From Propionivibrio dicarboxylicus (GTDB taxonomy: Bacteria; Pseudomonadota; Gammaproteobacteria; Burkholderiales; Rhodocyclaceae): a DNA stretch of 64,000 bases. Of this stretch, positions 46,145-50,536 are shown piece by piece; the stretch's first letter is position 1; every line of letters begins with the position of its first letter. Where the stretch lies: positions 1 to 64,000 of the forward strand of contig NZ_FNCY01000023.1 of assembly GCF_900099695.1 (NCBI RefSeq), given 5' to 3'. The translations under genes and the position numbers were made by a program. The notes beneath the pieces are model-generated. The model had not been told where the DNA came from. It did no database searches and saw only the letters and a program-made list of their open reading frames with translations.

Positions 46145-48250
46145 TTACTTCCACATGCCGCGCATGCGGGCGGCGAGATCGAGCGGCGGCTTCGATGCAT
46201 CGGGATGCTGCGCCGCCCACGCCTGCAGGCCGGGCGGTTCGGGGGCGGGCGGCCAGCTGCGCTCGGCGAACGCATTCAACAGCCCGCTCGGGATGAAGCG
46301 TGTGCGGCTGGCATAGACGTGCCGGTCGCCTGTCCCGCCCGGACCGTTGGTATAAAAGCGTTGCGGCAACAGGAGGTCGAGATGATCCTTGGCGCGGGTC
46401 ATCGCCACATAGAGGAGTCGCCGCTCTTCCTCGATCTCGGCCTCGCTGCCGGTGGCCATGTCGGAGGGCATGCAGCCGTCAACGACGTTGAGGACGGTCA
46501 CCGCATTCCATTCCTTGCCTTTGGCCGAGTGGATCGTCGACAGGATCAGGTAGTCCTCGTCCAGCAGCGGGACGCCCGCTTCATCGCTGGTCGCTTCCGG
46601 CGGGTCGAGCGTGAGCTCGGTGAGGAAACGTTCGCGGTTGGGATAACTCGAGGCAATGCGTGTCAGCTGCTGAATATCGCTGCGGCGCACGTCGGCATCC
46701 TCGTACAGGCGGTCCATCTGGGCGTCATACCAGAGGACGACGCTTCCGAGCGGCGCCGGCCAGGTGTCGGCGCCTTGCCGCAGTCCTTCGATCAGTGCCG
46801 CAAAAGCGCTCCATGCCTCGCGTGCGCCTTCCGGAACCGGTTGTTCGGCAAGCAGCTCGCAACCGGGTGCGGCATTCTGCAGGTGGTCGACAATGCGCCC
46901 GGCCGTCTTCGGGCCGATGCCGGGCAGTAACTGGATGGCGCGAAATCCCGATACCCGGTCGCGCAGGTTCTGCGCCCAACGCAGGATGGCGAGCAGGTCC
47001 TTGACGTGACGCGCTTCCAGGAACTTGAGGCCGCCGAACTTGATGAACGGGATGTTGCGCCGGGTCAGTTCGATTTCGAGACGGGCGCTATGCGAGGCGG
47101 CGCGAAACAGCACCGCCTGCGATTTGAGGGGAATGCCTTGTTCGCGCCGTTCGAGCGTGCGTTCGACGACGTAGGTCGCCTGGTCGGTCTCGTCGCGGAC
47201 GGTGATCAGGCCCGGCTTTTCCGAGGAGATGCGTTCGCTCCGCAGTTCCTTGCTGTGACGCTCTTTCGCCCGGGCAATGACGGCATTCGACACGGCGAGG
47301 ATCGGCTGCGTCGAGCGATAGTTCTGTTCGAGCGCAATCTGTCGGGCCGGCGGAGTGAACTGCGTCGGGAAATCGAGGATGTTGCGCACGCTGGCGCCCC
47401 GGAAACTGTAGATCGATTGCGCGTCGTCGCCGACCACCGTCAGCCCCCGGCCATCGGGTTTGATCGCCCGCAGGATGGCGGCCTGCAGGAAATTGGTATC
47501 CTGATATTCGTCGACGAGCGCATGGCTGAAGCGCGTGCCGATTTCCCGCGCCAAGTCCGCTTCGCCGACCATCTGCGCCCAGTAAAGCAGCAGATCGTCA
47601 TAGTCGAGCACCTGCTGCGCCTGCTTGGCTTCGACATAGCCGAGATAGAGCGACTTGAGCTCGTTTTCCCATTCCGCACACCACGGGAAATTGCTTTGCA
47701 GGACATTGGCAAGGTCCCGCTGCGTGTTGATGACTGCCGAATAAATGGCGAGGCAGGTGCCTTTGAGCGGAAAGCGCTTTCCTTTCCCGGAATGCCCGAG
47801 ATCGTTGCGCACCAGATTCATGAGGTCGGCCGAGTCTTCACGGTCGTGGATGGTGAAATCGGGGCTCAGTCCGATGCGTTGCGCATAGTCGCGGAGCAGG
47901 CGCGCGCCGACGCCATGGAAGGTGCCGGACCAGGCAAAGCCGCCGCTGGCCAGGCGCGCATGGCGTGCCGAAACCTTGCTGGCGATCGTCTGGACGCGCC
48001 GCGTCATTTCGTCTGCCGCACGACGAGAGAAGGTCAGCAACAGCAGCCGGTCGGGATCGGCGCCCTGCGCGAGCAAATGCGCGACGCGGTGGGCGAGCGT
48101 ATTGGTCTTGCCGGTTCCGGCGCCGGCGATGATGAGCAGCGGAACCTCATCCGGCGCGACGGCCGCATCGCGTTGCGCGGCATTCAGCGTCTTCAGATAG
48201 GCCGGGATGTCGGCGGAGTCCGCGGACTCTGTTTGGATGAGGTCGGTCAT
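46145..48250 (-). CDS. UvrD/Rep-family superfamily 1A DNA helicase
   Basis: The 701-residue ATPase has motif I IIAGAGTGKTNTL (about 40-52), Ia LLLLTFSRRAADEM, II VDEYQDTN, III VVGDDAQSIYSFRGA, IV QNYRSTQPIL, V STIHSAKGKEWNAVTVLNV and VI LLYVAMTRAKDHLDLLLP, in standard UvrD order. It is somewhat shorter than UvrD or Rep, lacking a long C-terminal extension, and fits the group often annotated as ATP-dependent helicase. The ATG at 48250 overlaps the stop of the zinc-ribbon gene by 4 bases; the open frame upstream of it is the zinc-ribbon gene in another frame. A LexA-type box precedes the pair. Confidence 0.92.
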   Translation of the reverse strand: MTDLIQTESADSADIPAYLKTLNAAQRDAAVAPDEVPLLIIAGAGTGKTNTLAHRVAHLLAQGADPDRLLLLTFSRRAADEMTRRVQTIASKVSARHARLASGGFAWSGTFHGVGARLLRDYAQRIGLSPDFTIHDREDSADLMNLVRNDLGHSGKGKRFPLKGTCLAIYSAVINTQRDLANVLQSNFPWCAEWENELKSLYLGYVEAKQAQQVLDYDDLLLYWAQMVGEADLAREIGTRFSHALVDEYQDTNFLQAAILRAIKPDGRGLTVVGDDAQSIYSFRGASVRNILDFPTQFTPPARQIALEQNYRSTQPILAVSNAVIARAKERHSKELRSERISSEKPGLITVRDETDQATYVVERTLERREQGIPLKSQAVLFRAASHSARLEIELTRRNIPFIKFGGLKFLEARHVKDLLAILRWAQNLRDRVSGFRAIQLLPGIGPKTAGRIVDHLQNAAPGCELLAEQPVPEGAREAWSAFAALIEGLRQGADTWPAPLGSVVLWYDAQMDRLYEDADVRRSDIQQLTRIASSYPNRERFLTELTLDPPEATSDEAGVPLLDEDYLILSTIHSAKGKEWNAVTVLNVVDGCMPSDMATGSEAEIEEERRLLYVAMTRAKDHLDLLLPQRFYTNGPGGTGDRHVYASRTRFIPSGLLNAFAERSWPPAPEPPGLQAWAAQHPDASKPPLDLAARMRGMWK

Positions 48251-48471
48251 GGCACGGGCATGGCCATCGCGGCGCCCGTTCGCCGCGTCGCGGGGTCTGG
48301 GTCGGGATGCCTGTTGGTGGGAGGCTGGGCGCTTGCCAGGATGATCATGCCATCGCATTCCGGACAGATGCAGCCCTCCCATGCCAGGCCCGACGCATTG
48401 TCGAGGGTGAGCGAGTCGATGGGGGCGCGGCAGTGCGGGCAGAGGATGCGTGGCGGTGTTGCTGGGGGCAT
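48247..48471 (-). CDS. Small zinc-ribbon protein coupled to the UvrD-like helicase
   Basis: The 74-residue protein has two cysteine pairs, CPHC (11-14) and CPEC (36-39), spaced as in a zinc ribbon, plus an isolated Cys34. The C-terminal 30 residues are proline- and arginine-rich and probably disordered. The ATG starts MPPATPPRILCPHC; the open frame extends 13 codons upstream through the LexA-type box, so the later ATG is preferred. Its TGA overlaps the helicase ATG (ATGA), which implies coupled expression and suggests joint action on DNA. No named family is recognised. Confidence 0.75.
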   Translation of the reverse strand: MPPATPPRILCPHCRAPIDSLTLDNASGLAWEGCICPECDGMIILASAQPPTNRHPDPDPATRRTGAAMAMPVP

Positions 48472-48572: not shown

Positions 48573-48640
48573 CAGCAAAAATTGAATCCCTGGCGCGGAC
48601 GCTTGTCTGACGGATGCAGCCCTCAAGAAAGGAGCGATTC

Positions 48641-48922
48641 ATGGCGACAAGCATTGGCGATTTCGGCGAACTCCGGGTAGACGCGCCACCGCAGCAGGCC
48701 ATCTGTACCTTCGGCGAAGCGTGCGTGGACAGCCCTCCCGCGGTGGCGATCTGTAGCTTCGGTGAGGAATGCGTCGAGGCGGCGCCGGCGGTGGCGATCT
48801 GTGCGTTCGGCGAACCGTGCAGCGATGCGCCGCCGGCCCAGGCCATCTGCCTGTTTGGCGAGGAGTGCGTTGAGCGGCCGCCGACACAGCGCATCGGAGA
48901 ATTCGGTCAGGAAATCCTCTGA
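48641..48922 (+). CDS. Cysteine-ladder protein of six 16-residue tandem repeats
   Basis: I do not recognise this 93-residue protein. It consists almost wholly of a 16-residue repeat, A-I-C-x-F-G-E-x-C-x-[DE]-x-P-P-x-x. Isoleucines 5, 21, 37, 53, 69 and 85 and phenylalanines 8, 24, 40, 56, 72 and 88 are in exact register. The four central copies carry two cysteines each (22/28, 38/44, 54/60, 70/76); the first and last copies have none, like caps. No signal peptide is present. The ATG follows a strong AAAGGAG. Constant period without insertions suggests a small beta-solenoid with two stacked cysteine ladders; metal or iron-sulfur binding, or a modified peptide, are possible. Stands alone between a SOS-type operon and tctA. 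Confidence 0.8.
   Translation: MATSIGDFGELRVDAPPQQAICTFGEACVDSPPAVAICSFGEECVEAAPAVAICAFGEPCSDAPPAQAICLFGEECVERPPTQRIGEFGQEIL
48683..48892 (+). repeat. 48-base coding tandem repeat
   Basis: The DNA of the cysteine-ladder gene shows the 48-base period directly; the stretch GCGATCTGT followed by TTCGG recurs at about 48690, 48738, 48786 and 48834 with third-position changes, so the copies are old enough to have diverged at silent sites while the protein register was kept. Confidence 0.75.
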
Positions 48923-49025: not shown

Positions 49026-50525
49026 CTAGGACTCGACGACCTCGTTGCGCTTGCGCAGGATCGCCGGCGACATCAGCACGAGCAGGATGACGACGACCGT
49101 GGCGAGCAGGACGGCGCTGATCGGTCGCGTCACGAAGACGCTGAAATCGCCGCCCGAGAGCATCATCGCGCGACGCAGGTTTTCTTCAAGCTGCGGGCCG
49201 AGCACCATGCCGAGCAGCAACGGCGCCGTCTCGACCTTGACCTTGTTGAAGAAATAACCGACGACCGAACAGCCGAGCATCAGCCAGACGTCGACGACGC
49301 TGTTGTTGACGCCATACGCGCCGATGCAGCAGAACAGCAGGATGGCCGGGAAGAGCAGACGGTACGGCACCTTCAGCAAGGACACCCACATGCCGATCAG
49401 CGGCAGGTTGATGATGAGCAGCATCAGGTTGCCCGTCCACATACTGGCGATGACGCCCCAGACGAGTTCCTTCTGCTCGACCATGATCTGCGGTCCGGGC
49501 TGGATGCCGTGGATCATCAAGGCGCCGATCATCAGGGCCATCAGTGCGTTCGACGGAATGCCGAGGGTGAGCAGCGGAATGAAACTGGTCTGGGCGCCGG
49601 CGTTGTTGGCGGCTTCCGGCGAGGCCACGCCTTCGATGGCGCCGCGGCCGAAGCGCGACGGATCCTTGGCGATCTTCTTTTCGACGGCATAGGCGGTGAA
49701 GGGCGGCAGCGCGGCGCCGCCGCCGGGCAGGACGCCGAGGATCGAGCCGATCGCCGTGCCGCGCAGTGCGGCGGGAAACGCCGCCTTGAGGTCGGCCAGC
49801 GACGGGAACAGATCCTTCATGCGCTGGCTGACGATGACGCGCTGCGACGGCTTCTCGATATTCGTCATGATTTCGGCGAGGCCGAAAAAGCCCATCGCGA
49901 CCGAGACGAAGCCGAGGCCATCGGCGAATTCCGGGATGTTGAAGGTCATCCGCTCGGCGCCGGAGTTGACGTCGATGCCGACGATGCCGAGCAGCAGGCC
50001 GATGCCGATCATCGCCAGCGACTTGATGACAGAACCATGGGCGAGAATGACGGCGGCAACGAGACCCAAGACCATCAGGCTGAAGAATTCGACGGCGGTG
50101 AAACTCAGCGCGAGCTTCGAGAGCGGGCCGCTCAGCAATGCGATGACGATGGTGGCGACGGTGCCGGCGAAGAAGGACGAGAGCGCCGCGATCGCCAGCG
50201 CGGTACCGGCGCGGCCTTGCCTTGCCATCTGGTGGCCGTCGAGGCAGGTGACCACCGACGAGGTCTCGCCGGGAATGTTGACGAGGATCGCCGTCGTCGA
50301 GCCGCCGTACTGAGCGCCGTAGAAAATGCCGGCGAGCATGATGAAGCCCGATGCTGGCGGCATGCCGAAGGTGAAGGGCAGCAAGAGCGCGACGGTCGGG
50401 ACCGGGCCGATGCCGGGCAGGACGCCGATCATCGTGCCGATCAGCGCGCCGATCAGGCAGAACAGCAGGTTGTTCCACTGCATCGCGGTGGAGAAACCGA
50501 TCATCAGGTTGTCGAGGAGTTCCAT
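49026..50525 (-). CDS. tctA: Tripartite tricarboxylate transporter, large membrane subunit TctA
   Basis: TctA is the twelve-helix permease of a TTT carrier. The 499-residue protein has IGTMIGVLPGIGPVPTVALLLPFTFG near the N terminus and the repeated GILPGGG-like motif LGVLPGGGAALPPFTAY in the second half, the typical inverted pair of glycine-proline motifs, plus FYGAQYGGSTTAILVNIPGE. The ATG at 50525 gives the usual length; a longer open frame upstream overlaps tctB and is not used. It is last in the order tctC-tctB-tctA. Confidence 0.95.
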   Translation of the reverse strand: MELLDNLMIGFSTAMQWNNLLFCLIGALIGTMIGVLPGIGPVPTVALLLPFTFGMPPASGFIMLAGIFYGAQYGGSTTAILVNIPGETSSVVTCLDGHQMARQGRAGTALAIAALSSFFAGTVATIVIALLSGPLSKLALSFTAVEFFSLMVLGLVAAVILAHGSVIKSLAMIGIGLLLGIVGIDVNSGAERMTFNIPEFADGLGFVSVAMGFFGLAEIMTNIEKPSQRVIVSQRMKDLFPSLADLKAAFPAALRGTAIGSILGVLPGGGAALPPFTAYAVEKKIAKDPSRFGRGAIEGVASPEAANNAGAQTSFIPLLTLGIPSNALMALMIGALMIHGIQPGPQIMVEQKELVWGVIASMWTGNLMLLIINLPLIGMWVSLLKVPYRLLFPAILLFCCIGAYGVNNSVVDVWLMLGCSVVGYFFNKVKVETAPLLLGMVLGPQLEENLRRAMMLSGGDFSVFVTRPISAVLLATVVVILLVLMSPAILRKRNEVVES

Positions 50526-50536
50526 GCGGTCGGCGC

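Follow-up and report, generated by a model that had tools for sequence, protein, structure and literature searches.

A lineage-specific bacterial protein of 16-residue cysteine repeats that share a loop with CCCH and PBZ zinc fingers

What might a small bacterial protein do that is built of exact 16-residue repeats, carries two regular columns of cysteines and, taken as a whole, fits no known family? The gene in question lies in a 64,000-nucleotide stretch of Propionivibrio dicarboxylicus DNA, referred to here as the window (Table 1). Its product consists of MATS followed by six units that start with IGDFGE, ICTFGE, ICSFGE, ICAFGE, ICLFGE and IGEFGQ at a period of exactly 16, with I, F and G at residues 5, 8 and 9 recurring every 16 residues throughout (the I..FG motif). 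When the sequence was shuffled 20,000 times, the number of in-register I..FG was 0 (19,279 shuffles) or 1 (721 shuffles), against the six observed. The eight cysteines, making up 8 of the 93 residues, fall into two columns (22/38/54/70 and 28/44/60/76) and are separated by spacings of x5 and x9 only; 15 acidic residues stand against three basic ones. Length, register and both cysteine columns were thus already described correctly in the first-pass annotation, which had been made from the sequence alone. At the DNA level, the ICxFGE pattern was found at four sites of the 4.5 Mb genome, all inside the repeat gene, and its backwards control yielded 0 occurrences in the same genome.

Table 1 Features of the repeat gene in the window.
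Feature	Position	Strand	Remarks
Repeat-protein CDS, 93 aa	48641..48922	+	ORF reading; lowest dN/dS among six frames, 0.18 (NG86)
Ribosome-binding site AAAGGAG	48628..48634	+	6 bases 5' of ATG; from sequence
Unit 1, IGDFGELRVDAPPQQA	48653..48700	+	without cysteine; IGDFGE invariant in 5/5 proteins
Unit 2, ICTFGEACVDSPPAVA	48701..48748	+	cysteine loop 48704-48724
Unit 3, ICSFGEECVEAAPAVA	48749..48796	+	cysteine loop 48752-48772
Unit 4, ICAFGEPCSDAPPAQA	48797..48844	+	cysteine loop 48800-48820
Unit 5, ICLFGEECVERPPTQR	48845..48892	+	cysteine loop 48848-48868
Unit 6, truncated, IGEFGQEIL	48893..48919	+	without cysteine in window protein

The family was found in five genomes: our own (G000) and those designated G105, G356, G397 and G264. 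AAAGGAG is present at the same distance from the ATG in G105, G356 and G397, and G264 has AAAGGGAG there. An alternative in-frame ATG upstream, at 48614, would give a 102-residue product; G105 has no in-frame counterpart of this codon, and its ORF starts at the same ATG as the 93-residue form. Promoter and terminator scans of the window found nothing, and a strong hairpin lies 3' of the repeat gene in G105. The protein is small and acidic and probably cytosolic, and since no export signal was recognised by eye, its compartment is probably reducing.

The repeat gene is real, and its protein is under selection, as the first reading had supposed. The closest relative, the G105 protein (82% identity), is encoded at the same genomic place, and the two genes differ silently in 16 codons and non-silently in 17, with 10, 8 and 25 substitutions at first, second and third codon positions, respectively. 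The resulting dN/dS amounts to 0.18 (NG86) or 0.34 (YN00). Antisense or other-frame coding was rejected, as the other five frames give NG86 values of 0.33-2.95 and four of them are interrupted by stops in at least one of the two genomes. A dN/dS of 0.19 was obtained for G356 and G397; dS was not estimable for G356 and G264. DNA identity between G000 and G105 amounts to ~84% in the repeat gene, 89% in the neighbouring helicase gene and 92% in the tct region, and the two TctA proteins are 100% identical across 501 residues; the repeat protein is therefore evolving faster than adjacent TctA. The 36 motif codons contain nine silent and one non-silent difference, the other 57 codons seven and 16 (Fisher p 0.0024, for motif positions that were picked post hoc with the alignment already known), a contrast indicating that selection acts on the motif.

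The family occupies 5 of the 28 genomes of the genus, own included, and the named records of the carrier group include Candidatus Accumulibacter and Propionivibrio. Among 395 genomes of the taxonomic family, a protein search returned five matching genomes and a profile search six; the genus members in the draw account for four in either case, and the remainder was discarded once the sequences were read. No member beyond the own genome was detected in 399 genomes of the order, 369 of the class and 289 of the phylum. Across 84,980 species genomes the window protein retrieved no match and the alignment three loci, taken as those of G356, G397 and G264; since genome searches of this kind are seeded by short exact patterns or by a first look, highly divergent members might escape. 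Viral contigs, queried with the window protein, the alignment and the DNA pattern, held no copy, nor did plasmids and phages queried with the G356 protein. Within these searches, the repeat protein is lineage-specific and confined to one genus. A lack of homologues beyond close strains together with a dN/dS near one had been named in advance as speaking against the initial reading; the restriction to one genus comes close to the first, and the dN/dS values above are at odds with the second.

Matches outside the genus came from seven genomes, namely G026 (locus L007), G748 (L017), G849 (L026), G017 (L075), G340 (L076) and, with ten matches between them, seven of which were read as loci L077-L083, G1207 and G1253. 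All were rejected as composition, chance or convergence. The matched strands of the stretches read contain no I..FG apart from one copy in L075 (the L080 stretch was not individually read), and when all six frames were scanned for two I..FG 16 residues apart, L007 and L081 each yielded a single pair, which lay outside the matched stretch or frame, and the 11 other loci scanned yielded no pair. At L026 (profile E 5.5e-5), in a distantly related genome of the class, an NPCA-type repeat protein has C-x5-C and a ~16-residue repeat in common with our protein, but carries an NPC motif and no I..FG, is 304 residues long and begins with a hydrophobic N-terminus like an export signal; the likeness is apparently convergent. 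In this L026 protein (1393-2307), a segment bearing a haem-type CNSCH motif is bounded on either side by NPCAMGNPCAMKKGMG-like repeats. G264 yielded one more match, a weak one (L031, E 0.18), and the own genome another two (E 0.25, antisense, and E 0.45), all of which were likewise dropped.

How the cysteines are used was approached by comparing all 30 units of the five proteins, which are related by descent and hence are not independent observations. All 30 units retain I..FG, and the two cysteines occur together in 19 units, are both missing in 11 and are never found singly. Among the relatives the state of the pair has changed at least three times, in units 4, 5 and 6, and each time both cysteines differ; where the pair is missing, the first cysteine position is occupied by glycine (eight units) or serine (three). 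A cysteine unit reads I-C-x-F-G-E-x-C followed by an acidic linker with proline. The C-x-F-G-x-x-C of these 19 units is a C-x5-C loop with an aromatic residue and a glycine; the residue two past the second cysteine is acidic (E or D) in 26 of the 27 units having that position, and linker position 12 is proline in 21 of 25. Histidine is absent from all five proteins. Cysteine-bearing units number four or three per protein, as inner units may lack the pair (one in G356, one in G397, two in G264) and the last unit carries it in G356, G397 and G264. The proposal that the capping repeats are free of cysteine accordingly holds for the window protein and G105, and fails for the last unit of the other three. 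Because cysteines come as both or none per unit, the functional pair is to be sought within the unit, across one loop (C-x-F-G-E-x-C), rather than between stacked units, which argues against a reading as cysteine ladders. The retention of I..FG in the 11 cysteine-less units implies, in turn, a further function of the unit besides any dealing with metal.

In database searches, the best Pfam matches of the family are CCCH zinc fingers, a zinc-binding type best known from eukaryotes. The model PF18044 (zf-CCCH_4) matched all five proteins at E<=1, with a best E of 6.2e-7. Its curated cut-off of 24.6 bits was passed by two of the five, G356 and G397 (29.2 and 29.4 bits), whose best stretch spans 10 of the 22 profile positions; the window protein (21.3 bits) and G264 (14.3 bits) stay below it, the latter being matched best by a different CCCH model, PF18345. 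The C-x-F-G-x-x-C loop falls inside the matched stretches, and control copies of the G356 protein, either reversed or with F and G swapped, gave no CCCH match. Haemadin, an unrelated cysteine-rich family, also matched 5/5 proteins at E<=1 and scored nearly as well on the window protein (E 0.00063 versus 0.00022 for CCCH), so that part of the Pfam score must stem from cysteine spacing alone. In the PDB, the family profile has a single match (E 1.4) and the G356 protein has two (E 0.11 and 0.3), all of them weak and falling on APLF chains at the same loop; we take these chains, 2kqb and 2kuo, to be PBZ fingers. The sole PDB match of the window protein is an unrelated oxidoreductase (E 0.24). PHROGs, PADLOC and NCBIfam offered no convincing match (E 0.057 or worse), and the open-licence literature, consulted in part through the best 9-12 of up to 253 matches, contained no paper on such a protein. 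The family is new to the libraries, in that two relatives pass one CCCH model and the window protein none, which bears out the initial impression that no described family accommodates it.

The likeness is confined to one part of the finger. CCCH fingers (PF00642, PF18044, PF18345) have the same loop, C-x-[FY]-G-x-x-C, between their second and third cysteines and the same tandem layout. The repeat protein, however, is without any histidine and without the C-x3-H that follows the third cysteine, can supply a first cysteine only as the last one of the preceding unit (C-x9-C), and is acidic, bacterial and faithful to I..FG even where cysteines are missing. For PBZ fingers, the sections of PMC4030884 drawn on here give the consensus [K/R]xxCx[F/Y]GxxCxbbxxxxHxxx[F/Y]xH, describe the type as restricted to eukaryotes, rank the APLF fingers as structurally most similar to C3H1 tandem fingers and report secondary structure as largely absent from both. 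C-x-[FY]-G-x-x-C is again held in common, and the G356 type adds K-x-P past the second cysteine, but both consensus histidines are missing from the repeat proteins. Without a single histidine in five proteins, a complete CCCH or PBZ site is impossible; having the cysteine loop and no histidine, the protein is therefore placed in neither class, and its units repeat the half that the two have in common. Bacterial metallothioneins, which are small and combine several cysteines with acidic residues, resemble it in these respects. They typically contain CxC and CxxC, whereas the repeat protein has no such clusters, only 8 cysteines in 93 residues and a strict 16-residue period.

AlphaFold2 models were built on shallow alignments and are weak evidence. 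That of the window protein (four sequences, pLDDT 47.8) contains short strands at residues 3-5 and 11-13 and a strand-helix-strand element near 53-59, and that of the G356 protein (five sequences, pLDDT 50.6) has no secondary structure; neither of these low-confidence models shows repeated strands or suggests a regular solenoid. The result is compatible with flexible knuckles that would become ordered only with metal, and the low order agrees with the scarcity of secondary structure in PBZ and C3H1 fingers noted in the sections of PMC4030884 cited above.

Metal binding, one of the functions suggested at the outset, would be the likeliest role, and we tentatively favour half zinc-knuckles strung into a flexible, lineage-specific tandem array that would bind a soft metal such as zinc, a reading that is quite possibly correct. 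The two thiolates of each loop would hold a single soft metal ion, with Zn as first choice and Cu(I) or Cd as alternatives, and the site could be completed by the pair of a neighbouring unit or by the acidic residue two past the second cysteine. The array might then act as a metal buffer, or its metal-bound, compact form might bind a partner via the invariant I..FG face. Several observations speak for half-knuckles: cysteine pairs are kept or missing as a whole in 30/30 units, non-silent change is scarce in the motif codons, the CCCH match of the loop is lost in the altered copies of the G356 protein, the weak APLF matches fall on that loop, the low order of the models agrees with PBZ and C3H1 fingers, and acidic residues prevail. 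Against them stand the lack of histidine, the weakness of the PDB matches, the sub-threshold Pfam score of the window protein with Haemadin close behind, and a neighbourhood, mostly read by eye, in which no gene for metal transport or sensing was recognised; metal binding alone leaves the I..FG of 11 cysteine-less units unexplained. One relative with just three cysteine pairs argues specifically against a site to which two units contribute. Should the metal reading hold, the protein would represent a minimal, repeat-built metal site with built-in evolutionary controls, as a single chain contains units that have the cysteine pair and units that lack it, the CxFGxxC loop would be able to work as a histidine-free, repeated half-finger, and the origin of such sites would become directly testable in a 93-residue protein. 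A bolder and distinctly improbable version holds that a lineage-born protein independently reached the loop of eukaryotic fingers that read RNA and ADP-ribose, and repeats it along a flexible chain; I..FG would serve as stickers, and metal on the cysteine pairs would switch the chain between a loose and a compact state, gathering a partner or a condensate.

The genomic surroundings were read mostly by eye, with nine proteins scanned. In G000 and G105 the repeat gene is flanked by a UvrD-like helicase gene and tctA (PF00580 and PF01970 in the window). It occupies a different place in G356, G397 and G264, with its 3' end facing a satP-like transporter gene, presumably satP. The satP-like genes of G000, G105, G216, G251, G365 and G398 and the tctA-like gene of G382 have no repeat-gene copy within the flanks examined (1.5 kb, or up to the stretch end in L067 and L070), and the genomes of four more distant satP-like loci (L071-L074) contain no repeat-family match anywhere. 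Neither a partner common to all five carriers nor an adjoining metal-transport or metal-sensing gene was recognised. As no neighbour is common to the carriers, the gene apparently acts alone or with distant partners, in keeping with its early description as a solo gene.

The strongest competitor of the half-knuckle array, itself unlikely, is a redox module in which a disulfide across the F-G turn is formed reversibly by the two cysteines of a unit, as a thiol switch or thiol buffer. It would account for a pair retained or lost as one, and a C-x5-C across a glycine turn can close. Neighbours lend it some colour: in G356, a convergent gene with a Thioredoxin_3 domain (PF13192) sits between the repeat gene and the satP-like gene, and the repeat gene of G397 adjoins a gene whose start is the same. 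No neighbour of this type was seen beside the repeat gene in G000, G105 or G264, however; a compartment that is probably reducing does not suit such chemistry, and the zinc-finger resemblance of the loop would have to be an accident.

Rather unlikely, too, is a multivalent scaffold of linear motifs, in which I..FG would be the partner-binding element, repetition would provide avidity and the cysteines would merely tune the interaction. Such a protein would keep I..FG in cysteine-less units, as observed, and would yield no confident AlphaFold2 fold; Nucleoporin_FG matched two of the five proteins weakly and below its cut-off (best E 0.0016, 19.7 bits against 32.2). The joint loss of both cysteines and the resemblance to zinc fingers are, however, left unexplained, and half-knuckles remain our preferred reading.

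The suggestion of a precursor of repeated peptides, here a multi-core RiPP precursor processed by enzymes encoded elsewhere, found little support and is very unlikely. Its appeal lies in repeated, cysteine-bearing cores with variable linkers and in the varying number of cysteine units, four or three. No peptide-modifying enzyme, though, was recognised by eye beside the gene in the five genomes; the one radical-SAM-looking gene, ~6.5 kb away in G397 (L023 10665-11414), resembles an RNA methylase. MNIO enzymes, normally encoded next to their RiPP precursor, were the sole enzyme family tested genome-wide (PF05114) and occur in 5 of the 28 genus genomes but in none of the five carriers. There is also no room for a leader, because the units start at residue 4 or 5.

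Least probable of all is the small beta-solenoid with stacked cysteine ladders that the first-pass annotation had put forward: isoleucine and phenylalanine are in register and the 16-residue period recurs in ice nucleation proteins, for whose repeats the part of PMC9418140 used here gives models of solenoid coils, but their consensus, AGYGSTQTAGEESSLT (PMC9418140), is unrelated, the conserved I and F are three apart, linker position 12 is mostly proline, both AlphaFold2 models (weak evidence, from four and five sequences) lack regular strands, and the two cysteines of a unit come and go together (19 both, 11 neither, 0 single).

Two further features of the locus were recorded. A 74-residue ORF with CPHC...CPEC (48250-48471, minus strand) is zinc-ribbon-like, gave no Pfam match at E 0.001 and lies just ahead of the helicase gene, in divergent orientation to the repeat gene; G105 has an ORF like it at the matching place (L004 1071-1298). 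The TctA transporter family, represented here by tctA at 49029-50531 on the minus strand, is strongly expanded in the own genome, with 13 TctA-like matches at E<=1e-50, and in eight genus relatives, with 9-13.
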